A stretch of DNA of 8,621 nucleotides from Halobacteriales archaeon (lineage in GTDB: Archaea; Halobacteriota; Halobacteria; Halorutilales; JAHENH01): NCBI GenBank assembly GCA_018609935.1, contig JAHENH010000089.1, positions 1 through 8,621 on the forward strand, read 5' to 3'. Below are positions 1 through 8,621 of the stretch, piece by piece; positions within the stretch are counted from its first letter, which is position 1, and each line of letters starts with the position of its first letter. Both the position numbers and the translations under genes were made by a program. Under the pieces are notes generated by a model that was not told the origin of the DNA, did not search any database, and was given only the letters and a program-made list of their open reading frames with translations.

Positions 1-74
1 AGCCGTTGGCGGGATTTGAACCCGCGATCTAGCGCTTACGAAGCGCTCGCTGTTACCAGCTAAGCTACAACGGC
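1..74 (-). tRNA. tRNA-Thr (anticodon CGT)
   Basis: The reverse complement folds into a full cloverleaf. The 7-bp acceptor stem pairs GCCGTTG with CAACGGC. The D stem is GCT/AGC around a loop containing GG. The anticodon stem pairs AGCGC with GCGCT around loop TTCGTAA, giving anticodon CGT, which reads the Thr codon ACG. The T stem pairs GCGGG with CCCGC around TTCAAAT. The discriminator base (position 1, complemented) is T, as is usual for archaeal tRNA-Thr. No intron is visible and CCA is not encoded in the visible part. It diverges from the aminopeptidase gene and may share its TATA region. Confidence 0.96.
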
Positions 75-100
75 GTCTATGTTTTTCTAAAAAGCCAGAG

Positions 101-108
101 ATATTAAT
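101..108. promoter_or_regulatory. Possible bidirectional TATA box between tRNA-Thr and the aminopeptidase gene
   Basis: The 56-nt spacer between the divergent tRNA and aminopeptidase genes holds ATATTAAT, whose core ATTAAT (103-108) is self-complementary. Its centre lies about 26 nt before the ATG at 131, which fits a leaderless mRNA. It lies about 31 nt before the mature tRNA 5' end on the other strand, which fits a start a few bases upstream of the tRNA. One TBP site could therefore serve both directions. This is inferred from spacing; an alternative tRNA TATA-like stretch (CTTTTTAG, read on the minus strand) lies nearer the tRNA. Confidence 0.45.
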
Positions 109-130
109 CTTCTGGAAAATTATTTTATGT

Positions 131-1030
131 ATGGAAAAGGGAGCTAAAGTAGCTATAGAGTGTATGAATATTCAGGAGTTCGAGTCTGTTTTGATTGTTT
201 CGGACGATATAAGAGAAAGTATAGGTAGAGCTTTAGAAAAAGCTGGTGAGGTTATAGGGTGTGAAGTAGTTTATATGGAGATGAATGCTAAAGGTGAACA
301 TGGAGGTGAGCCTCCTAGTTCTGTTAGTAGTGCTATGATGGAAAGTGATGTAGTTTTTGCCCCTACTACGTATAGTTTAACACATACAGAGGCAAGAAAA
401 AAAGCCTGTGAAAATGGAGCTAGGATAGCTACTATGCCAGGGATAACAGAAGAAATGATGGATAGTTCTATGAATGCTGATTATAGTAAAATTAAGGAAA
501 AAGCTGAGGAACTAAAGGAAAAATTGGAAGGAGCTAAGAATATACATATTAGTTCTGATAAAGGTACGGATTTATCTTTAGATGTCGAGGGAAGAACTTG
601 GAATATAGATGCTGGACAATGTGAAAAAGGTGAGGTTACTAATCTTCCTGCAGGTGAGGTATTTATTGCTCCTATATCTGGTGATGGTAGACTAGTTATT
701 GATGGATCTTTTGCCGGATTAGGTAAAATTGATCGAATTGAAATACTATTCGAAGATGGAGAAGCTATAGATATAAGTGATAGTAAGTTAGAGGATAGAG
801 TAAACTCTGTATGTAGATGTGGTAGAAATCTAGCCGAGTTTGGTATAGGTCTTAATCCTAATGCTGTTTTGATAGGTGAGGTCTTACAGGATGAAAAAGT
901 TAAAGGTACTATACATATTGCTATTGGCGATAATAGTGGATTTGGTGGAAATGTTAATTGTGATCTACACCTTGATGGTGTGGTTGAAAATCCTACTGTT
1001 GAAGTTGATGGGGAAAAGTTAGATCTTTAA
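131..1030 (+). CDS. M29-type (leucyl/thermophilic) aminopeptidase-like metalloprotein
   Basis: The 299-residue product resembles the short archaeal aminopeptidase T group (COG2309, peptidase M29), metal enzymes that remove N-terminal residues from peptides in the cytoplasm; distant relatives include NicX-type ring-cleaving dioxygenases. The C-terminal half carries the expected ligand pattern in order: Glu176 in NLPAGE, Glu236 in AEFGIG, His262 in IHIAIGD, a glycine-rich FGGN, then His280 and Asp282 in HLD. Spacing resembles the Thermus AmpT set (Glu, Glu, His, His-x-Asp) in compressed form. The N-terminal half (1-135) is the variable alpha/beta domain. There is no signal peptide. The ATG at 131 is preferred because a TATA element lies 26 nt upstream and no Shine-Dalgarno is present, pointing to a leaderless transcript. 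The gene ends 19 nt from the convergent truD. Exact substrate is not shown. Confidence 0.85.
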   Translation: MEKGAKVAIECMNIQEFESVLIVSDDIRESIGRALEKAGEVIGCEVVYMEMNAKGEHGGEPPSSVSSAMMESDVVFAPTTYSLTHTEARKKACENGARIATMPGITEEMMDSSMNADYSKIKEKAEELKEKLEGAKNIHISSDKGTDLSLDVEGRTWNIDAGQCEKGEVTNLPAGEVFIAPISGDGRLVIDGSFAGLGKIDRIEILFEDGEAIDISDSKLEDRVNSVCRCGRNLAEFGIGLNPNAVLIGEVLQDEKVKGTIHIAIGDNSGFGGNVNCDLHLDGVVENPTVEVDGEKLDL

Positions 1031-1036
1031 TACGTA

Positions 1037-1051
1037 TTTTATTTTTTCTTT
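1037..1051 (+). terminator. T-rich terminator after the aminopeptidase gene
   Basis: TTTTATTTTTTCTTT begins seven bases after the TAA stop. Archaeal RNA polymerase stops at such T-runs without a hairpin. It sits in the 19-nt gap to the convergent truD and overlaps the last bases of that gene. Confidence 0.5.
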
Positions 1052-2315
1052 AGTCTATATTTTTAATATATTCACGTAGCACTACTGTAGCATAAGTGCT
1101 TTTAGGAAGTGTAAATTGAAGTTCTATATAATCTTTAATGTTATATAATATATTGGTTTGGAATAATATCGGACGTCTGTTTCCTTCTGTATTATATTTG
1201 TTTTCCTGGAAGTGTTTCTCTTTGATATCTGTTTTTTCTAAAGTTTTTCTTTCTATTTCTCCTTGAAGGCCTTGAGAAAATTTGGTGTCTGAACCTATTA
1301 ATGGTGCTGTGACAAATGCCTTATTTCTGTTTATGTGTTTGTTTATTATTTTTTTATTGGATTTTGTCACCTTTCCCAGTCGATCATTATCAGGTAATGG
1401 TATATCGGTGTCTTGGGACGTGAAACATACTATATCTCCGTTGTATGCTTTATCAAACCTTAGATTTTTATTATAACGTTCTCTTAGAATAATATTAAAT
1501 ATTTTAGATTGTACAGCATTTACTAAAAGAAGTCGGAGTCTGAATGGGAGTTGTTCTATTGCTTTTTTATATGTGCATCCCTCAGAAAGTTTGTGTAGAA
1601 TTGATCTTTCATATCCCAGATATTTTGGAAAATATTCTAAAGCTTCTTTATAATTTCTTTCTTTTTTGAGTTTTTCCCTGACATTTTTTGTATCCTCAGG
1701 TTCTGTTTTGAATGTTTTACATAGATATTCACAAACAGCTCCTTTATAGTCTTTTTTTAATAATTTCTTACCTACTCTATGTGATACAGGCCTCTTTGAT
1801 CCAAATCTTTGTATTCCAAACAGGTTAGGGAAACCCCCGAATTTTTCTATCTCATCTGTAGTGTTTTCAAGTTTTTCTCTGCAGTCTTCTATACTTGATA
1901 TATCTCTTATTTTTATGTTGAATTCATTACTTATTAGGTCCCCAAGCTTAATAGGTCGATCTGAATATCCGAGAAATTCTATTTCGACGTTATTTATATT
2001 TATTGAATTTATTCTATCCTTACTTATTCCTTGGATTGTAAATATCTGGGTTGTTATAGCTTTTTTATCTTTAGTACCTGCCCATGATATTCTTTTTTTA
2101 CTTATACCAAGATTTTTAGAGAGGTTCTTAGAGAGCTGATGTGTTTCATAGTTTTTTAAAGTAATCTTTAAAACTAGATACCCTCCTTTTTGTTTTTTGT
2201 AGGTAAAATCAGATTTTTCAATTACTCGGAAATCTTCAGGATGTTTTTTAATTTCTCCCTCTATATTTGGTGTCTTACTTATATGCCAATCTAGTCCTAT
2301 ATTTTCTAATTCCAC
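1050..2315 (-). CDS. truD: tRNA pseudouridine synthase D (TruD/Pus7 family)
   Basis: This 421-residue protein is a TruD-family pseudouridine synthase, which isomerises uridine (position 13 in tRNAs, in known members) to pseudouridine in the cytoplasm. Visible motifs, in order: the N-terminal IKKHPEDFRVIE; the catalytic motif AGTKDKKAITTQ with Asp83; GGFPNLFGIQRFG (160-172), the family hallmark; a LLLVNAVQSKIFN helix (262-274); and the C-terminal STYATVVLREYIK (406-418). Length is normal for archaeal TruD. The start is GTG at 2315; no in-frame ATG lies nearby and the N-terminal motif requires a start about here. No clear Shine-Dalgarno is seen. It lies 43 nt behind pth2 on the same strand, so it is probably the last gene of the topA-pth2-truD cluster, possibly with its own promoter. 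The central linker (about 345-380) is Lys/Glu-rich and looks variable. Confidence 0.95.
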   Translation of the reverse strand: MELENIGLDWHISKTPNIEGEIKKHPEDFRVIEKSDFTYKKQKGGYLVLKITLKNYETHQLSKNLSKNLGISKKRISWAGTKDKKAITTQIFTIQGISKDRINSININNVEIEFLGYSDRPIKLGDLISNEFNIKIRDISSIEDCREKLENTTDEIEKFGGFPNLFGIQRFGSKRPVSHRVGKKLLKKDYKGAVCEYLCKTFKTEPEDTKNVREKLKKERNYKEALEYFPKYLGYERSILHKLSEGCTYKKAIEQLPFRLRLLLVNAVQSKIFNIILRERYNKNLRFDKAYNGDIVCFTSQDTDIPLPDNDRLGKVTKSNKKIINKHINRNKAFVTAPLIGSDTKFSQGLQGEIERKTLEKTDIKEKHFQENKYNTEGNRRPILFQTNILYNIKDYIELQFTLPKSTYATVVLREYIKNID

Positions 2316-2332
2316 TATATTAAATTATCTCT

Positions 2333-2343
2333 ATAATATTTAG
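2333..2343 (-). promoter_or_regulatory. Possible internal promoter of truD
   Basis: The pth2-truD gap reads CTAAATATTATAG on the minus strand, centred about 23 nt before the GTG start. That spacing suits a leaderless truD transcript independent of topA. AT-richness of the region makes this weak. Confidence 0.25.
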
Positions 2344-2358
2344 TTTTATTTTTCATAT

Positions 2359-2694
2359 CTATAGAATAGATAAATTTCCAGTTATAGAATCAACTTTTTC
2401 TTCAGATGATGGTCCAACAGCGAGAGCTGTTGGTGTCCCTTTTTTTAATTCAGTCCTTCCCTCATCATATATTAAAGCTGCAGGTAGTCCTTTTTTTATT
2501 GCTTGATCTTTAAGTTTAAACAGTTCTTCTTTGTCTACCTTTAGAACTATTTTTCTAGCTCCTTCTCTTTCCCATTTTTCCTTTATTTCTGTGGGTGATT
2601 TTTTATATGCTTTTAATGATGCATGTGCTACCTGTGCAGCAAGCTTTCCTTTACTCATATCTAAGTCCGATCTAACAACTATAGATTGCTTCAT
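2359..2694 (-). CDS. pth2: Peptidyl-tRNA hydrolase, Pth2 (archaeal/eukaryotic type)
   Basis: The 111-residue product is a complete Pth2, the cytoplasmic enzyme that cleaves the ester bond of peptidyl-tRNAs dropped by ribosomes and recycles the tRNA. The N-terminus shows a strand, then SKGKLAAQVAHASL with the conserved Lys17 and His24. The C-terminal half has the second family signature DEGRTELKKGTPTALAVGP (77-95). Length is typical. The ATG shares its A with the TAA stop of topA (TAATG), so its translation is probably coupled to topA; no separate Shine-Dalgarno is evident. It is followed by truD after 43 nt. Confidence 0.96.
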   Translation of the reverse strand: MKQSIVVRSDLDMSKGKLAAQVAHASLKAYKKSPTEIKEKWEREGARKIVLKVDKEELFKLKDQAIKKGLPAALIYDEGRTELKKGTPTALAVGPSSEEKVDSITGNLSIL

Positions 2695-5600
2695 TATTGT
2701 TTATTTTTATAGTTTTCATAGTTACATATTGGACATCCAAGATCCCAATCTCCATTAATAACTATATTTTTCAGACCGTGTTTATCGCATATACCATCAG
2801 TTTCTAGGTCTCCTGACCTAGGTAAGGGTAAAGAATATGTGCAGTCAGGATATCTGCTGCATCCAGCTAGTCTTCCACCTTTCTTTGTTCTTTTAACCAT
2901 TAAGTTCCCTCCTTTATTATCCCCACATTCAGGGCATTCCCCTAAAACTTCCCTGTCTCCAGCATTTTCTTCCATACATACTGGACAACCATAGAAGAAA
3001 TTCCTTGTCTTAATTTTTCTTAGACTATGTTTATCACATTTATCCTCAACTAAAATAGGCTTACTATCAGGTAAAGGATATGTATTCTTACAGTCAGGGA
3101 ACGAATCACATCCTACAAAAAATCCGTTTTTAGATTTCCTAATTACAAGCTTACCTCCACACTTAGAACATTCTCCCAACGTCCTATCTTCTTTAAGTCC
3201 TTCAAGAACTATTTCTCCAACTTTTTCTTCTTTTCCCTCAAGAGAATCAAATACTTCAGACAAAGATTCCCTAGAATTTTCAACCACTTCCTCTTTTTCT
3301 CTTTGTCCTTTAGCTATCTTTTCCATCTGGTTTTCCAGTTCTCTTGTCATTTCAGGATCCGTAATATCCTCAGCTGTATTCTCCATAGCTCTAACAACAG
3401 AACGCGCTAAAGCAGTAGGCCTTGGAGGTTTACCTTCTATATATCCTCTATTATATAGTTTACGTATAGTTTCATGTCGTGTAGAATTATGGACTAAAAC
3501 ACCATTGCTAACTGAAAAGTTAGGTGAAGTATTATCTATAGTGAGATCATAGACATACCCATCGTATTGTATAGTTTCTATTTTCTCAACTTGTAAACTA
3601 GATGGTATCTGGCATAAACAACTATATATAGATTTTTCAAAAGATCTTGATAAACAATATAGATTTCCGTAGTTCTTTTTTATGTATCCTTCACCTTTTA
3701 GTTCCTCTACTATCTGTTCACTATATCTTGTATTTAATAATTCTTTAATTTCTTTTTCAGATAGTTCCTTATTATGCCAGATTTTTTCTAAAATATACGC
3801 TTTTTTTCTAGTTTTTTCATTATTTTTTAAGTAAATAAATAATGTATAAAAATCCTCATCCGAATTTATGGGTATCTGATCAAGAAAACGTTCTATATTA
3901 TGTCTACCCTGTACAGTTAAAATTCCTTTAGATCTATTAAGAGATATATTTATACCTAATGTTTCAAATATTTCTTTTATCTTCGTTAGATATTTAATAT
4001 CTATATCAGAAAAATGTATTTTTTCTTTTTCAATATAACCTATATCTTCAAATAGCTCCCCAATAAAACTAGGATATAGATCTTCAGGAATACGGGTAAA
4101 ATCATCTAATATATATTCTAGTATATTACAAACAAAATAATCTATATTAAAGCTTTCATCAAATGTAACATCATATCGATTTTTAAAGATATTAGAGAGG
4201 TTAGAAATAAATTCTTCTTTTCGACTATGTTTATCTTTACTACTATGTATTTTTATATAGTCTACTATTAAATCTATTAGTTTTTCATCCCACTTAATAG
4301 GTAATATATTTCTATATTCTCTCTTTATTTGTTTTTCATCTATGCTGTCTTTAATTTCATTATATTTTATTTTTTCATTTGTTTCTTGTCTATTTTTTAT
4401 AGTGCGAGTTGTTAGAAGCTTGTCTCCTGGTTTTACATTTTCTGCTGGTTTAATTTCTATATCAGATTTATTTTTTATATATACTGGATGCTGATCTGTT
4501 ACATAAAAACAACCATTTTTATTCGAGATCTTTAACATCTCCTCATTTTCTTTGAGTTTTCTTCTTGTAACCATAGATATTGGTTTTGTAGCTATTTGTC
4601 CAGTAGCCTCATTTAACGAAAATACATGAGACTTAACACCTATTGAGGCTTCGATACTGTCCCCATCTGCTAGAACAATACTGTTTTTTTCAAAAAGATC
4701 TTTAGCTGTAACAATATCTATATTTTCCGTATCTTTATTATATTTTATTATAGAAGTATCTTCGGCTAAACACTTTGTCCCTAGTCCAAGGTCTTCCATT
4801 TTTTCCACTAGCTTTGATTGTCCAATCCTACTTGGTGGGCTAGTTTCTCCCTCTTCAATCCTTGTATCAACCACTTCTATTTTTTCCTTACTTTCTAAAT
4901 CAGGTATTTTATTTTCATTCTTATTAAAATATGGATAATATGAATGATATCCAGGCTCAATCAATTCCTTTCCTCTAGATTCGAATTTCTCATCTTTTAT
5001 ATTGAGTATAACTTTATCTTTCTTCCATTTAGCTGGAGATGAAAGAGTTGCGAAAAATCTTCTAACTATAAGTTCATATATCTTCCATTCTCTATTAGAT
5101 AACTCTTCTTTAGAGGCTATAGCTGTAGGATGTATTGGAGGATGATCTGTAGTTTCTTTATCACCAGATGTAGGATTTAAATCACCTTTAAGTAATTCTG
5201 AAGTTTCTCCTTCAAATTCTTCTGAAAGTTTTTTTAAGATAGAACGTAGATCAATTTCGTCCGAATAAACTGTATTATCTGTTCTAGGATATGATATAAA
5301 TCCCTCAGTATAGAGGTCTTCTGCAACACTCATAGATCCAGAAGCTGAAAAACCTATAGATCCAGCAGCTCTAATAAACTGTGTTGTATTGAATGGTATT
5401 GGCGGATTATCAGTCTTAATTTTAGACTCTATATTTTCTACTATAGCTGTATCTACATCTACTTTCTTAAATACATCTTGTGCTTTTTCCTTATTCCATA
5501 TCTTCTTTTTTCTTCTATTGTTATCCTTATAGAAATATTTTGATCCAAATCCTTGATCTTGTTTTTTTAGATCCGCATAAATTTCCCAGTAAGACTCAGG

Positions 5601-6230
5601 ATCAAATTCTTCCCTTTCTTTTTCTCTATCAACTAAGATCTTAAGAGTCGGTGACTGAACTCTTCCCACAGATATAAAAGAATCCCCAAGTCTACCAGAT
5701 GCAAGAGAAAGATAACGAGTTAAAGACGCACCCCAAAGAAGATCTATTTCCCGTCTAGCTTCTCCAGCAGATGCCAGATTTATATCTAGATCCTCCGGAT
5801 TAGAAAATGCAATTTCAATTTCCTGCGGAGTTAAAGACGAAAATTTTGCTCTATCAACATTATCAACAGATTCTCCAGATACAGTACAGGCTTCTTTACC
5901 TATAAGTTCACCTTCAGTATCATAATCAGTTGCTATAATTACTTCATCAGCATCCTCAGCAACCTTTTTTACAGCATCTACTATATCTTTTTTACCTATT
6001 TTTTCAACAATTTCAGCATCAATAAGATCAGAAGGATCTACAGAATTCCAATCTCCATATCCTTCTTCAAAATCTATATCCATAACATGTCCTGCAAGTC
6101 CTATACAAGCCATATTATCCCATTCATAGACTGATATCCCCTCTATCTTTTTCTCACTATATCCATCACCGCTGAGGATGCTTGCAATCCTTTCAGCAGC
6201 ACTGTTTTTTTCTGCTATAACAAGTTTCAT
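2694..6230 (-). CDS. topA: DNA topoisomerase I (type IA) interrupted by an intein
   Basis: Type IA topoisomerases relax negative supercoils by passing a strand through a transient single-strand break. The 1178-residue precursor is 749 residues of topoisomerase plus a 429-residue intein (487-915). An N-terminal Toprim domain begins LVIAEKNS with Glu7 and has DYDTEGE, with metal-binding Asp102, Asp104 and Glu106. Motif ISVGRVQSPTL (186-196) follows. The active-site Tyr314 lies in FISYPRTDNT. TTDHPPIHPTA (360-370) is another family block. The motif GLGTKSTRHETI is split by the intein. The tail holds four Cys-rich modules near 1021-1047, 1065-1085, 1099-1130 and 1148-1169, alternating CxxC...CxxxxxC ribbons with CDKH...CPxC units. 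No frameshift or missing catalytic residue is seen. It heads the topA-pth2-truD cluster and overlaps pth2 by one base. A weak AAGGA precedes the ATG. Whether the intein splices cannot be proven here, but all visible splicing residues are present. Confidence 0.97.
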   Translation of the reverse strand: MKLVIAEKNSAAERIASILSGDGYSEKKIEGISVYEWDNMACIGLAGHVMDIDFEEGYGDWNSVDPSDLIDAEIVEKIGKKDIVDAVKKVAEDADEVIIATDYDTEGELIGKEACTVSGESVDNVDRAKFSSLTPQEIEIAFSNPEDLDINLASAGEARREIDLLWGASLTRYLSLASGRLGDSFISVGRVQSPTLKILVDREKEREEFDPESYWEIYADLKKQDQGFGSKYFYKDNNRRKKKIWNKEKAQDVFKKVDVDTAIVENIESKIKTDNPPIPFNTTQFIRAAGSIGFSASGSMSVAEDLYTEGFISYPRTDNTVYSDEIDLRSILKKLSEEFEGETSELLKGDLNPTSGDKETTDHPPIHPTAIASKEELSNREWKIYELIVRRFFATLSSPAKWKKDKVILNIKDEKFESRGKELIEPGYHSYYPYFNKNENKIPDLESKEKIEVVDTRIEEGETSPPSRIGQSKLVEKMEDLGLGTKCLAEDTSIIKYNKDTENIDIVTAKDLFEKNSIVLADGDSIEASIGVKSHVFSLNEATGQIATKPISMVTRRKLKENEEMLKISNKNGCFYVTDQHPVYIKNKSDIEIKPAENVKPGDKLLTTRTIKNRQETNEKIKYNEIKDSIDEKQIKREYRNILPIKWDEKLIDLIVDYIKIHSSKDKHSRKEEFISNLSNIFKNRYDVTFDESFNIDYFVCNILEYILDDFTRIPEDLYPSFIGELFEDIGYIEKEKIHFSDIDIKYLTKIKEIFETLGINISLNRSKGILTVQGRHNIERFLDQIPINSDEDFYTLFIYLKNNEKTRKKAYILEKIWHNKELSEKEIKELLNTRYSEQIVEELKGEGYIKKNYGNLYCLSRSFEKSIYSCLCQIPSSLQVEKIETIQYDGYVYDLTIDNTSPNFSVSNGVLVHNSTRHETIRKLYNRGYIEGKPPRPTALARSVVRAMENTAEDITDPEMTRELENQMEKIAKGQREKEEVVENSRESLSEVFDSLEGKEEKVGEIVLEGLKEDRTLGECSKCGGKLVIRKSKNGFFVGCDSFPDCKNTYPLPDSKPILVEDKCDKHSLRKIKTRNFFYGCPVCMEENAGDREVLGECPECGDNKGGNLMVKRTKKGGRLAGCSRYPDCTYSLPLPRSGDLETDGICDKHGLKNIVINGDWDLGCPICNYENYKNKQ
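3486..4772 (-). mobile_element. TopA intein with degenerate LAGLIDADG endonuclease
   Basis: This is a 429-residue in-frame intervening protein (precursor residues 487-915). It begins with Cys487 in CLAEDTSII (block A), has the block B Thr578 and His581 in VTDQHPVY, a block F-like VYDLTIDNTSPNFSVSNG, and ends VLVHN with penultimate His914 and terminal Asn915, followed by Ser916 as +1 nucleophile. Removing it restores GLGTK-STRHETI, a conserved type IA motif. Residues about 646-788 look like a two-motif LAGLIDADG endonuclease: the second motif is FIGELFEDIG, where the usual acidic residue before the final Gly is Ile, and the first (LIDLIVDYIKIHSS) has no recognisable acidic-Gly end. Residues about 790-862 resemble a winged helix. 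I infer splicing is active, because it is the only way to make working TopA, while homing is probably lost. Confidence 0.95.
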
Positions 6231-6252
6231 TCAGTCCTTGAAGAGAGGGAGA

Positions 6253-6265
6253 GAGAAAACTAAAA
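6253..6265 (-). promoter_or_regulatory. Possible topA promoter
   Basis: On the minus strand CGGAACTTTTTAGTTTTC lies about 30 nt upstream of the topA ATG. CTTTTTAG could act as TATA with a purine-containing BRE before it, giving a very short leader. A second AT-rich candidate (GATATAATTTAAG on the minus strand, near 6300-6312) lies further up. Neither is decisive. Confidence 0.25.
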
Positions 6266-6371
6266 AGTTCCGCCCTCTAGATAAGTCTCCAAAATTAAAA
6301 CTTAAATTATATCAGTAGCCAATAAAATAGGATAGAAATTAAGCTATTTGAAAACTGATATTTATTTGGAT

Positions 6372-6449
6372 ATGAAGAAATCTAGTATAATAGCATCAAT
6401 ACTTGTATTTTCTACTATGTTTATTTATTTTAATGATTTTAGTTTTTGA
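6372..6449 (+). CDS. 25-codon signal-peptide-like ORF, probably a gene remnant
   Basis: An ATG opens MKKSSIIASILVFSTMFIYF and stops five residues later. Two or three positive charges followed by a hydrophobic run of about 15 residues look like an export signal with no mature protein behind it. No matching Shine-Dalgarno or well-placed TATA is seen. It sits at the edge of a block of broken genes, so a truncated secreted or membrane protein is more likely than a functional micropeptide. An AT-rich stretch with complementary A and T runs (6451-6467) follows. Confidence 0.25.
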   Translation: MKKSSIIASILVFSTMFIYFNDFSF

Positions 6450-6660
6450 TAAAAAAATTTTTAAAAGAATCCTATTAAATACTGCAAACCTAAAGATATA
6501 TATTTAAAGGTTTAGATGATCGTATCAAAATACTAACCTACGATGACTTAGTGGAACATGCCAGAAGTGTTGTATAACATTATTAGACAACTATGAGACA
6601 ACTGAAGAAGACGAAGATAATTTTAGTAGTTTTAACCCAGACTTAAAAATAGTTTTTAGA
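6450..6660 (+). pseudogene. Fragment resembling the C-terminus of a Shedu/DUF4263-type nuclease
   Basis: One frame (6494-6577) reads KGLDDRIKILTYDDLVEHAR before a stop. From memory, the order 'RIxxLTYDDLxxRA' is the usual C-terminal ending of DUF4263 (SduA, Shedu anti-phage) and some related restriction-type nucleases. A neighbouring frame just upstream (from about 6470) gives PIKYCKPKDIYLK, which could join by a frameshift. Another frame just after gives LLDNYETTEEDED. No start, no catalytic domain and no continuous frame exist, so this is at best a relic. The assignment rests on about 20 residues and may be wrong. Confidence 0.3.
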
Positions 6661-6915
6661 CACATTTTCTCTTGGTTGTTTACCCCTTTGTTTTGGTTGA
6701 AGTCCACCGAACAGGTGGTTTGGTTGACAGAGGATCCAATCTATAAACCGTTCAAATCCAATTTTTCAAGTAATGCTTCTCTCTACATCCTTCTTTTGAG
6801 TTCTCAAGAGAAAAGTAGTCTAGAACTTTTATATAAATCTAGGTTTATTTTCCTTGGAATGGAAGTTAGGTATACAGAAAGATTTAATGAAGTGCAATTT
6901 GGTAGGATTATTTAG
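6583..6915 (+). other. Unrecognised 110-codon open frame, no convincing start
   Basis: A frame with no stop runs from LDNYETTEEDED to GRII before a TAG stop. The only internal start in a sensible place is TTG at 6676, with no Shine-Dalgarno and no TATA at the right distance. The first part is acidic; the rest has hydrophobic stretches (FSWLFTPLFWL, ASLYILLLSS) without a clear domain. It does not resemble a family I know. It contains an inverted repeat flanked by direct repeats, and its end overlaps operator-like sites of the next gene. It may be the far end of the decayed gene before it or chance openness. Confidence 0.2.
6692..6727. repeat. Inverted repeat framed by 9-bp direct repeats
   Basis: CCACC-GAACA-GGTGG (6704-6718) is a perfect 5-bp stem with a 5-nt loop. 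It is bracketed by identical TTTGGTTGA copies at 6692-6700 and 6719-6727, and a related TTGGTTG lies at 6673-6679. It may be a chance structure, a protein-binding site or a scar of an insertion. No transposase is nearby. Confidence 0.4.
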
Positions 6916-6981
6916 GGTTTAATTGCCTAATATGCAATTCTTCTATAAAAGATAAGGGGTAACTATTGCATAAAGTGTAAT
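6882..6981. promoter_or_regulatory. Operator-like dyad repeats (ATTGC-N7-GCAAT) around the MNT promoter
   Basis: A perfect dyad AATTGC-CTAATAT-GCAATT occupies 6921-6939. A second copy with one mismatch, ATTGC-ATAAAGT-GTAAT, occupies 6965-6981, just before the ATG at 6983. A third, with a degenerate left half, ATTTA-ATGAAGT-GCAAT, occupies 6882-6898. Starts are 40 and 43 bp apart, roughly four DNA turns, so bound dimers would lie on nearly one face. The TATA box sits between the two better copies. The adjacent gene encodes a winged-helix domain, so autorepression as in toxin-antitoxin operons is the natural inference. The first copy is clear; the third could be chance. Confidence 0.55.
6943..6951 (+). 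promoter_or_regulatory. TATA box of the MNT-HEPN module
   Basis: CTATAAAAG is the best TATA match in this part of the window. It predicts transcription starting near 6973, about 10 nt before the ATG at 6983. It lies between two copies of the ATTGC-N7-GCAAT dyad. Confidence 0.5.
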
Positions 6982-6982
6982 T

Positions 6983-7624
6983 ATGTTCCCCCCTCAAAGT
7001 ATGAGGCCCGTAACCCAGAGAAAATACTAGGGTACTAGCAGAAAAAAACAAAAGATATACCATAGAGAAACTCACAGAAATGTGACAGGGATCAAAAGCA
7101 TCAATATCAAGAGCATTAAAAAAGTCATCTCGATACCAATTCGTCGACAAAAGAAACATTTTAGAATCAAAAAAAAAACAATCCTACAGGCTTGATCTTG
7201 AAAGCGAATACACAACAGCAATCAAGAAATTCTTCGAAACAGAAAAAAAGAATAGAAAGACGAGACGGTATAATACCTGTACAGATCTGGAATCTTCTAG
7301 AAGATATTACAATAAAGTCAGAAAGAAAAATTAACGACTTCATAGAATTATTCCTATTCGACTCCTAGCAAGAGGAGACTATTATGCGGGAAGCGACAGA
7401 GACCTACTAATACTGTGTGACAAAGAAAACAAAGAGATAGAAAAAATTTAGAAACATAATTGACTCAATACAGACAGATAAAGAAATACAAATAACAACT
7501 TTCAATTCAGAAAAATCGTCTAGAAACAAAAAATAAACAGGACCTACAGAGATTCATATATCAAAATTTCCTGGTAGATACAAACCCACTACTTATTCCC
7601 TTAACAGGTGAGGGTGATCTTTAA
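6983..7624 (+). pseudogene. Broken winged-helix + MNT nucleotidyltransferase (antitoxin-type) gene
   Basis: Joining frames gives one coherent protein. It starts near ATG 6983 or 7001 (MRPVTQR). A winged-helix part follows: VLAEKNKRYTIEKLTEM, a TGA at 7083, then SKASISRALKKSSRYQFVDK. A linker leads to RLDLESEYTTAIKKFFETE and GIIPVQIWNLLEDI. The nucleotidyltransferase core is LFLFDS...ARGDYYAGSDRDLLIL, matching the GSxARG...SDxDLL signature with both aspartates kept but Gly of the GS pair changed to Asp. The C-terminus ends LVDTNPLLIPLTGEGDL. Breaks: a frame change near 7017-7022, the TGA, and shifts at an A7 run (7243-7249), at 7363-7368, at an A6 run (7441-7446) and at an A5 run (7511-7515). 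MNT enzymes of this class are antitoxins that AMPylate a HEPN toxin; a HEPN remnant follows with TAATG overlap. As read it cannot make protein. Sequencing error at homopolymers is the alternative, but A-rich topA nearby is intact. Confidence 0.75.
7613..7619 (+). promoter_or_regulatory. Shine-Dalgarno of the HEPN remnant
   Basis: GGTGATC, four bases before the ATG at 7624, matches the archaeal anti-Shine-Dalgarno (GGAGGTGATC) over seven bases. It is the clearest ribosome site in the window, supports this start, and suits re-initiation after the overlapping MNT stop. Confidence 0.75.
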
Positions 7625-7794
7625 TGTCTGGTGAACTTGGTAGATTCAAAGAGGAATGTCTTGAAAACGGAGAAAATCCCGACACCATAAGAATAGAAGG
7701 AACAAATAGAAAAGATGAGGTTGAAAGGTTGAAAAACCAATCACGGTACCATGAAAAAGACGCCAAAGAACTTCTAGAGGGGGGAGACAACTAG
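7624..7794 (+). pseudogene. N-terminal remnant of a HEPN-domain (toxin-type) protein
   Basis: A 56-codon frame begins MSGELGRFKEECLENGENP, continues through a charged segment, and ends RYHEKDAKELLEGGDN before TAG. The pattern of an initial helix then 'H-x-x-D-A-x-x-L-L-E-x-G-D' is how many archaeal HEPN proteins lead into their four-helix core; the core and its RNase motif (Rx4-6H) are absent. It starts on the stop codon of the MNT gene with a strong Shine-Dalgarno, the usual layout of HEPN/MNT toxin-antitoxin pairs. Past about 7790 the DNA becomes orc1-like in another frame, so the 3' part was probably lost by deletion. A small intact protein cannot be excluded, but it would lack the toxin active site. 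Confidence 0.6.
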
Positions 7795-8353
7795 CTAGAT
7801 CTGTTTATATTAATTGTTGGCAGTATAATACCCGTCTAGGCCTTTTAACTGAGTTGTTGGTGTCTTTGGGTTATTCGACTCCAATGAAGGGAAGCCTGTA
7901 GATGAGCTTTTGTCGAAACTTGGTGAGTGGTTGGATAAGAACCGTAATGTTGCTGTGGCTTTAGATGAGTTTGATCGACTGGAAGATAAGACACAGGTAG
8001 TCTATAATTTGGAGATGTTGAATGAAGAATCTGAGAACCAGATAGGTATAGTTATGGTTTCTAACCAGCATCCTTCAAGACTTAATTTAGACTCAAGAAG
8101 TCAGAGCAGATTAAACTGTCAAACACTATATTTCAAGCCCTACAGTACTCCCCAGTTAATAGAGATTTTAGAGAAGCGTGTAGAACAAGCTTTCAGACCT
8201 GAAACAGTACCAGACAGGGTAATAGAAGAGATAGCTGAAAAGGCATCAGAAAACAGTGGAGATTGTAGACAAGCACTTAATCTATTGTTAAGAGCAGATA
8301 GGAAGGCTGATAGAGACGGAAAAGACAATATTACTATTGAAACTATTAAATAA
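7791..8353 (+). pseudogene. Internal fragment of an Orc1/Cdc6 replication initiator, frameshifted
   Basis: Archaeal Orc1/Cdc6 proteins are AAA+ ATPases that bind origins and load MCM. Here only the middle remains. One frame gives SVYINCWQYNTRLGLLTELL and STPMKG, the strand after Walker A. A missing base in the G-run at 7889-7891 (ATGAAGGG-AAG) moves to the frame that reads KPVDELLSKLGEWLD, Walker B VALDEFDRL, sensor-1 region IGIVMVSNQ, LDSRSQSRL, FKPYSTPQLIEIL, and sensor-2-like NSGDCRQALNLLLRA, ending ITIETIK. The Walker A N-terminus (roughly 70-90 residues) and the C-terminal winged helix that binds origin DNA are missing. A TTG at 7910 could start 147 residues in frame, but with no Shine-Dalgarno and no P-loop this would not be a working initiator. 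It abuts the HEPN remnant, suggesting a fusion deletion near 7790. Confidence 0.85.
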
Positions 8354-8372
8354 GTAGTGTAGAGTCTATCTT

Positions 8373-8449
8373 GTATGTTTTTTTGTTTAGTTATTTATTG
8401 GTATGTCGGGGTTTCAGGTGGTATGGTTTTTTTGTGTTTTGTTATTTGG
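8373..8449. repeat. Imperfect T-rich direct repeat after the orc1 fragment
   Basis: GTATGTTTTTTTGTTT...GTTATTTATTGG (8373-8401) recurs as GTATGGTTTTTTTGTGTTTTGTTATTTGG (8421-8449), offset 48 bp. Both contain T7 runs (8378-8384 and 8427-8433) that could terminate plus-strand transcription, so this is either a duplicated terminator or part of a lost control region. The rest of 8354-8529 holds no gene I can see. Confidence 0.5.
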
Positions 8450-8471
8450 TTACTATATGTGATGCCATTTA

Positions 8472-8491
8472 ATGGTAGTAGATGGTAGTAT
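8472..8491. repeat. Short 10-bp tandem repeat
   Basis: ATGGTAGTAG is followed directly by ATGGTAGTAT, two copies with one mismatch, just upstream of the promoter of the last gene. Possible regulator site or replication-slippage product. Confidence 0.5.
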
Positions 8492-8498
8492 TAGTAAC

Positions 8499-8506
8499 TT
8501 TTATAC
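8499..8506 (+). promoter_or_regulatory. TATA box of the last gene
   Basis: TTTTATAC is centred about 27 nt before the ATG at 8530, matching the spacing of a leaderless archaeal promoter. A G-rich GTGGGGGTG lies between, but at 12 nt from the ATG it is a poor ribosome site. Confidence 0.5.
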
Positions 8507-8529
8507 ATGTGGGGGTGTTAGTATGTAGT

Positions 8530-8621
8530 ATGAGTATAGAAACTCCACCAGTACAAAGATGGTTTGATTTGCAGAGGAAATATGTAGAACAGAGTGTAGA
8601 AAACGTAAAAAGAGTTACTGA
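8530..8621 (+). CDS. Start of an unidentified gene, cut by the window edge
   Basis: Thirty codons are visible, beginning MSIETPPVQRWFDLQRKYVE and continuing with a polar, probably helical stretch (QSVENVKRVT). There is no signal peptide. The mixed charged/amide helix could open a coiled coil or a phasin-like protein, but I do not recognise the family. The ATG is chosen because a TATA box lies 27 nt upstream and because the only earlier ATG (8523) meets a stop at once. It marks the return of intact-looking coding DNA after the decayed block. Confidence 0.6.
   Translation, partial: MSIETPPVQRWFDLQRKYVEQSVENVKRVT

Follow-up and report, generated by a model that had tools for sequence, protein, structure and literature searches.

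A topA-allele intein in a Halobacteriales topoisomerase I, with losses concentrated in its endonuclease

The gene for DNA topoisomerase I (TopA) on contig JAHENH010000089.1 of a Halobacteriales archaeon, analysed over positions 1–8,621 (the window), is interrupted by an intein of 429 amino acids (aa). Our data establish the site, motifs, frame, family and kinship of this element. It is very probably an ordinary class 1 intein belonging to the archaeal topA allele, one that has kept splicing, has lost homing and stems from an ancestor with a two-repeat LAGLIDADG endonuclease. Its losses are concentrated in the endonuclease.

The host gene and the splicing regions

The TopA precursor is 1178 aa long, and the intein occupies residues 487–915, between GLGTK and STRHETI. 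Pfam matches to Topoisom_bac (396.5 bits), Toprim and Zn_ribbon_Top1, together with NCBIfam NF005555 (DNA topoisomerase I, 896.5 bits), identify the host protein. The extein motifs EKN (at 7), DYD (102), SYPRT (313) and HPP (363) are in place, and all 1178 codons lie in an open frame. Computed masses are 134 kDa for the precursor, 50 kDa for the intein and 84 kDa for the ligated TopA (749 aa). The first-pass annotation had placed the intein here, and its boundaries, on the minus strand, proved exact to the base (Table 1).

That annotation also located the insertion in a core motif of the enzyme, and comparison with relatives bears this out. The split stretch aligns with GIGTD and then ATHAEHI of the TOP3-alpha structure 4cgy, and intein-free relatives read GTK-STRHNTI, or nearly so, at the insertion site. 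As the alignment of the divided stretch extends even to TOP3-alpha, TopA probably needs excision of the intein. We found no role assigned to the GTK-STR residues in the available portions of PMC7587558 and PMC6101483. A reading of the 429 residues as a conserved TopA domain can be ruled out: 108 of 119 other listed TopA proteins are shorter than 1000 aa, and the intein-free proteins inspected show GTK-STR uninterrupted. Two further observations concern the host protein. The TopA extein is 749 aa, versus 825–914 aa in 11 halobacterial exteins, and PF14520 (helix-hairpin-helix), found in most listed TopA relatives, was not reported by the Pfam scan of this TopA.

Class 1 inteins splice by an acyl shift at Cys1, transfer to the +1 residue, Asn cyclisation and a final acyl shift. 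The insert has the features of this class, being in frame, with a block A Cys, a block B Thr/His pair, a C-terminal His-Asn and a nucleophile at +1, and it has the Hint fold. Strongly conserved positions are retained at 15 of 19 sites in the N-terminal splicing region and 14 of 16 in the C-terminal one (29/35 overall). Judged by these motifs, the intein is complete for splicing, and we infer that splicing works. The predicted path would lead from an acyl shift at Cys1, through transfer to Ser+1 and cyclisation of Asn429, to a final acyl shift that releases TopA of 749 aa.

Table 1. Features of the interrupted topA gene (window coordinates; residues of the intein numbered from Cys1)
Feature	Position	Strand	Evidence
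TopA (type IA DNA topoisomerase I) precursor, 1178 aa	2694..6230	-	Pfam and NCBIfam matches, catalytic motifs
N-extein, precursor residues 1-486, GLGTK end	4773..6230	-	Alignment to relatives
Intein, 429 aa, Cys1 to Asn429	3486..4772	-	Motifs, alignment, profile and structure matches
N-terminal splicing region, intein residues 1-122, CLAEDT and VTDQHPVY	4407..4772	-	Boundaries from alignment
Remnant (32 aa) of HTH_3-like insert (99 aa in P0070)	4311..4406	-	Alignment
Remnant (73 aa) of LAGLIDADG repeat 1	4092..4310	-	Alignment; no conservation of GDGS motif or VDxRYHNTD region
LAGLIDADG repeat 2, intein residues 228-310	3843..4091	-	Fold kept in model; Ile (LFEDIG) in place of the catalytic Glu
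Winged-helix-like segment, intein residues 311-390, 80 aa (91 in P0070)	3603..3842	-	Alignment
C-terminal splicing region, intein residues 391-429, VYDLTIDNTSPNF and VLVHN	3486..3602	-	Alignment
C-extein, precursor residues 916-1178 and stop, STRHETI start, zinc-ribbon region	2694..3485	-	Profile matches

Occupancy of the insertion site and kinship

The GTK^STR site (the caret marks the insertion point) is not new; it is widely occupied. All 11 of the 119 other listed TopA proteins that exceed 1000 aa have their insert at this bond. A protein search with the intein from the window returned P0003, whose intein lies at the same bond, as the sole match besides itself among 7991 scored candidates, and a contig scan with this intein alone found no relative. 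The protein search missed halobacterial inteins that are 29–34% identical, so its outcome says that close relatives did not turn up and does not make the intein unique. Contigs were also scanned with an alignment of four halobacterial inteins. This yielded 15 named halobacterial loci, with both junctions at GTK^STR in 14; the fifteenth (L015) matches residues 1–299 only, with an N junction and a frame that ends without a C junction. Viral contigs scanned with four halobacterial inteins gave no relative. In the class of G006, a Halobacteriales metagenome-assembled genome, the precursor has a match in all 391 genomes, and a full-size intein was found in 17 (E ≤ 1e-30), always at GTK^STR, in a search that strongly shortened copies could escape. 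Among 246 genomes of the phylum, 34 of which matched at E ≤ 1e-150, the best TopA (G035) is 60% identical over residues 2–486, and its site is intein-free.

Searching with the P0003 intein brought in a wider set of 33 proteins including P0003, and both junctions fall at GTK^STR in 30 of the 32 others, with HN^STR at the C junction in 28 and SN^STR in 2. The count leaves aside P0126, of which only the N junction was seen, and P0152. Names in this set include Methanotorris igneus, Methanothermococcus, Methanocaldococcus bathoardescens, Woesearchaeota, Nanoarchaeia, Aenigmarchaeota and Diapherotrites, and two matches (P0130, P0142) carry bacterial names. Three proteins named as Methanococcales TopA (P0129, P0134, P0153) contain HN^CSYPRT besides the GTK^STR site, the pattern that a further intein ending next to the active-site tyrosine motif would leave.

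To place the intein, we built a tree of 28 rows, all from the GTK^STR bond, with inteins of other genes left out; the label dpann on 15 rows was assigned in this analysis. The intein from the window groups with 8 halobacterial inteins (support 100/99), 8 of the 11 halobacterial copies having been taken for the trees. An extein tree of 24 rows, made by a quick method, joins the host protein to the same 8 copies (Shimodaira-Hasegawa-like approximate likelihood ratio test, 100). The end branch is 2.29 in the intein tree, compared to a median of 0.39, and 0.42 in the extein tree, compared to 0.37. Identity to the 11 halobacterial copies is 51–61% for the extein and 29–34% for the intein. Taken together, the trees and identities indicate an intein of long standing in the halobacterial line, or near it, whose divergence is unusually large for its host protein. 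At 14.7%, the third-position GC of the intein ranks lowest among seven stretches compared, with Pth2 near at 15.3%. The window as a whole is 33% GC, and the nearest kin of its TopA are in Halobacteria, with identity reaching 61%.

Elsewhere in the window, an Orc1/Cdc6-like fragment lies at 7853–8353 on the plus strand. A 147-aa frame within it (7910–8353) matches positions 127–268 of the 366 of TIGR02928, and the gene ends were not found in that frame; it looks like a broken gene. The region 6300–7850 has no frame above 122 aa even from stop to stop, and short pieces at 7165–7451 recall, by eye, a nucleotidyltransferase in pieces. This region may be the remains of a mobile element.

Decay of the endonuclease and alternative readings

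Halobacterial relatives are inteins of 532–541 aa with a helix-turn-helix (HTH) insert and two LAGLIDADG repeats, compared to 429 aa here. HTH_31, HTH_3 and MarR_2 are found in 12, 11 and 12 of 13 scanned inteins, respectively, and none of the three is listed for this one. The LAGLIDADG_3 profile scores 17.3 bits on it, under the cut-off of 22.5. Conserved positions are retained at 1 of 17 sites in the HTH remnant, 6 of 25 in repeat 1 and 7 of 15 in the winged-helix-like segment, and the structure models give repeat 1 helices and almost no strand. Both catalytic acids are absent. Of 66 other inteins compared, 63 have the pair; P0134 has lost one acid, and P0153 and P0154, at 169 aa, have no endonuclease domain. 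In the methanogen TopA intein P0134, likewise at GTK^STR, repeat 2 has DDKG instead of DDEG, which may mark an earlier step in such decay.

Overall, 25 of 77 endonuclease positions are retained, versus the 29 of 35 for splicing (Fisher P = 6e-7). P0003, a similarly diverged control with both acids, retains 57/77 and 24/35 (P = 0.65). The element lacks the two repeats with catalytic acids of a LAGLIDADG homing endonuclease. Nor is it a mini-intein, as 268 residues still separate the splicing parts and one repeat is folded in the model. Since neither acid remains, and repeat 1 is partly and the HTH insert mostly gone, we infer that the intein can no longer home, and it appears past homing. The ancestor would have been mobile, with a two-repeat LAGLIDADG endonuclease and HTH and winged-helix DNA-binding parts. 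The first-pass annotation called the intein complete. This holds for splicing, whose motifs are retained, but not for a homing element, since the endonuclease has decayed. According to the accessible part of PMC10643990, once an intein is fixed its endonuclease may degenerate, while the splicing domain cannot do so without cost. Persistence of the intein would follow if, as we expect, imprecise removal destroys TopA.

Several points weigh against this reading. The Intein_splicing profile is barely above its cut-off (36.6 versus 35.8). The intein model is middling (mean predicted local distance difference test score 70.5, with stretches within 30–66 and 127–156 under 50), the precursor model is poor overall (predicted template modelling score 0.40), and the whole-chain matches that Foldseek gave for the full 429-aa intein model are loose (best TMq 0.32). 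The long end branch makes the exact place of the intein less sure. The alignment of repeat 1 is uncertain, its catalytic position being a gap in one alignment and Ile in another, and the conserved positions behind the retention counts were defined from 35 copies that are not independent. Lastly, splicing of some inteins needs the endonuclease region (PMC10643990, in part), and so decay could impair splicing here.

One alternative is that splicing is conditional and acts as a switch on TopA activity, and the first-pass annotation had gone as far as describing DNA relaxation as gated by splicing. We found nothing that points to regulated splicing and think a switch very unlikely. The insertion does interrupt sequence that type IA enzymes conserve, and the winged-helix-like and half-LAGLIDADG parts are still partly there. 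However, 374 of the 391 class genomes have no full-size intein match at the above threshold, which argues against any general need for such a switch, and homing itself yields patchy presence at one bond. There is a similarly small chance that the remnant (the acid-free repeat and the winged-helix-like segment) has been retained for another role, such as adjusting splicing to salt or to the state of DNA, or binding topA DNA; if so, splicing would set TopA supply in the source lineage. The reading of a dead topA copy whose intein no longer splices has in its favor the large endonuclease-region losses and the inteins whose splicing depends on that region (PMC10643990, in part). We hold this very improbable in view of the conserved splicing positions, the open frame and the extein catalytic motifs. 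A second topA may lie elsewhere in the source genome. There is next to no chance that a rearranged form, such as a dimer of the remaining LAGLIDADG repeat, keeps the endonuclease active: with Ile for the catalytic Glu of repeat 2, the dimer would have neither acid.

Comparison with known inteins

We favor, then, a splicing-competent intein past homing: real but ordinary and ageing, caught after loss of catalytic residues and before loss of the domain. It leaves the understanding of inteins and topoisomerases unchanged. The first-pass annotation could not say whether the site was catalogued. Soucy et al. 2014 tabulates a topA intein allele in DNA topoisomerase I, marked neither as a new allele nor as a new extein, with four halobacterial members and one other euryarchaeal member, M. 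igneus, whose accession is printed also under another allele (PMC4071816). The exact bond was not found in the part of PMC4071816 available. We take it to be GTK^STR, since that is where the intein of P0131, named as M. igneus TopA, lies. A literature search on archaeal TopA inteins, in which few subscription papers were covered, gave no closer description.

Among solved structures, the best sequence matches are to the Pho RadA intein (PDB 2lqm, 4e2u), which has the Hint fold but differs in host protein and in length (chains of 174 and 168 residues). At the GTK^STR bond of the orthologous host, the closest counterpart is the halobacterial topA allele, with loci in Natrialba swarupiae, Haloarcula mannanilytica, Natrinema mahii, Natrinema altunense and Halorarius litoreus, among others. 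The intein described here shares its host protein, bond, splicing motifs, domain order and grouping in both trees; unlike it, ours has lost most of the HTH insert, part of repeat 1 and both acids. DPANN inteins from Nanoarchaeia (P0138), Aenigmarchaeota (P0141) and Diapherotrites (P0143), and the P0003 intein (29% identical to ours), occupy the same bond but are 530–558 aa long with both acids. For the Woesearchaeota TopA (P0126), the N junction alone was seen. The Methanotorris igneus intein (P0131; same bond) is 535 aa and has both acids, whereas that of Methanocaldococcus bathoardescens (P0153; same bond), at 169 aa, has no endonuclease domain, the same type of loss carried further. The GTK^STR bond therefore displays three stages of the intein life cycle: full-size elements in Halobacteria, DPANN and Methanotorris, the partly decayed one in the window, and the mini-intein of Methanocaldococcus.
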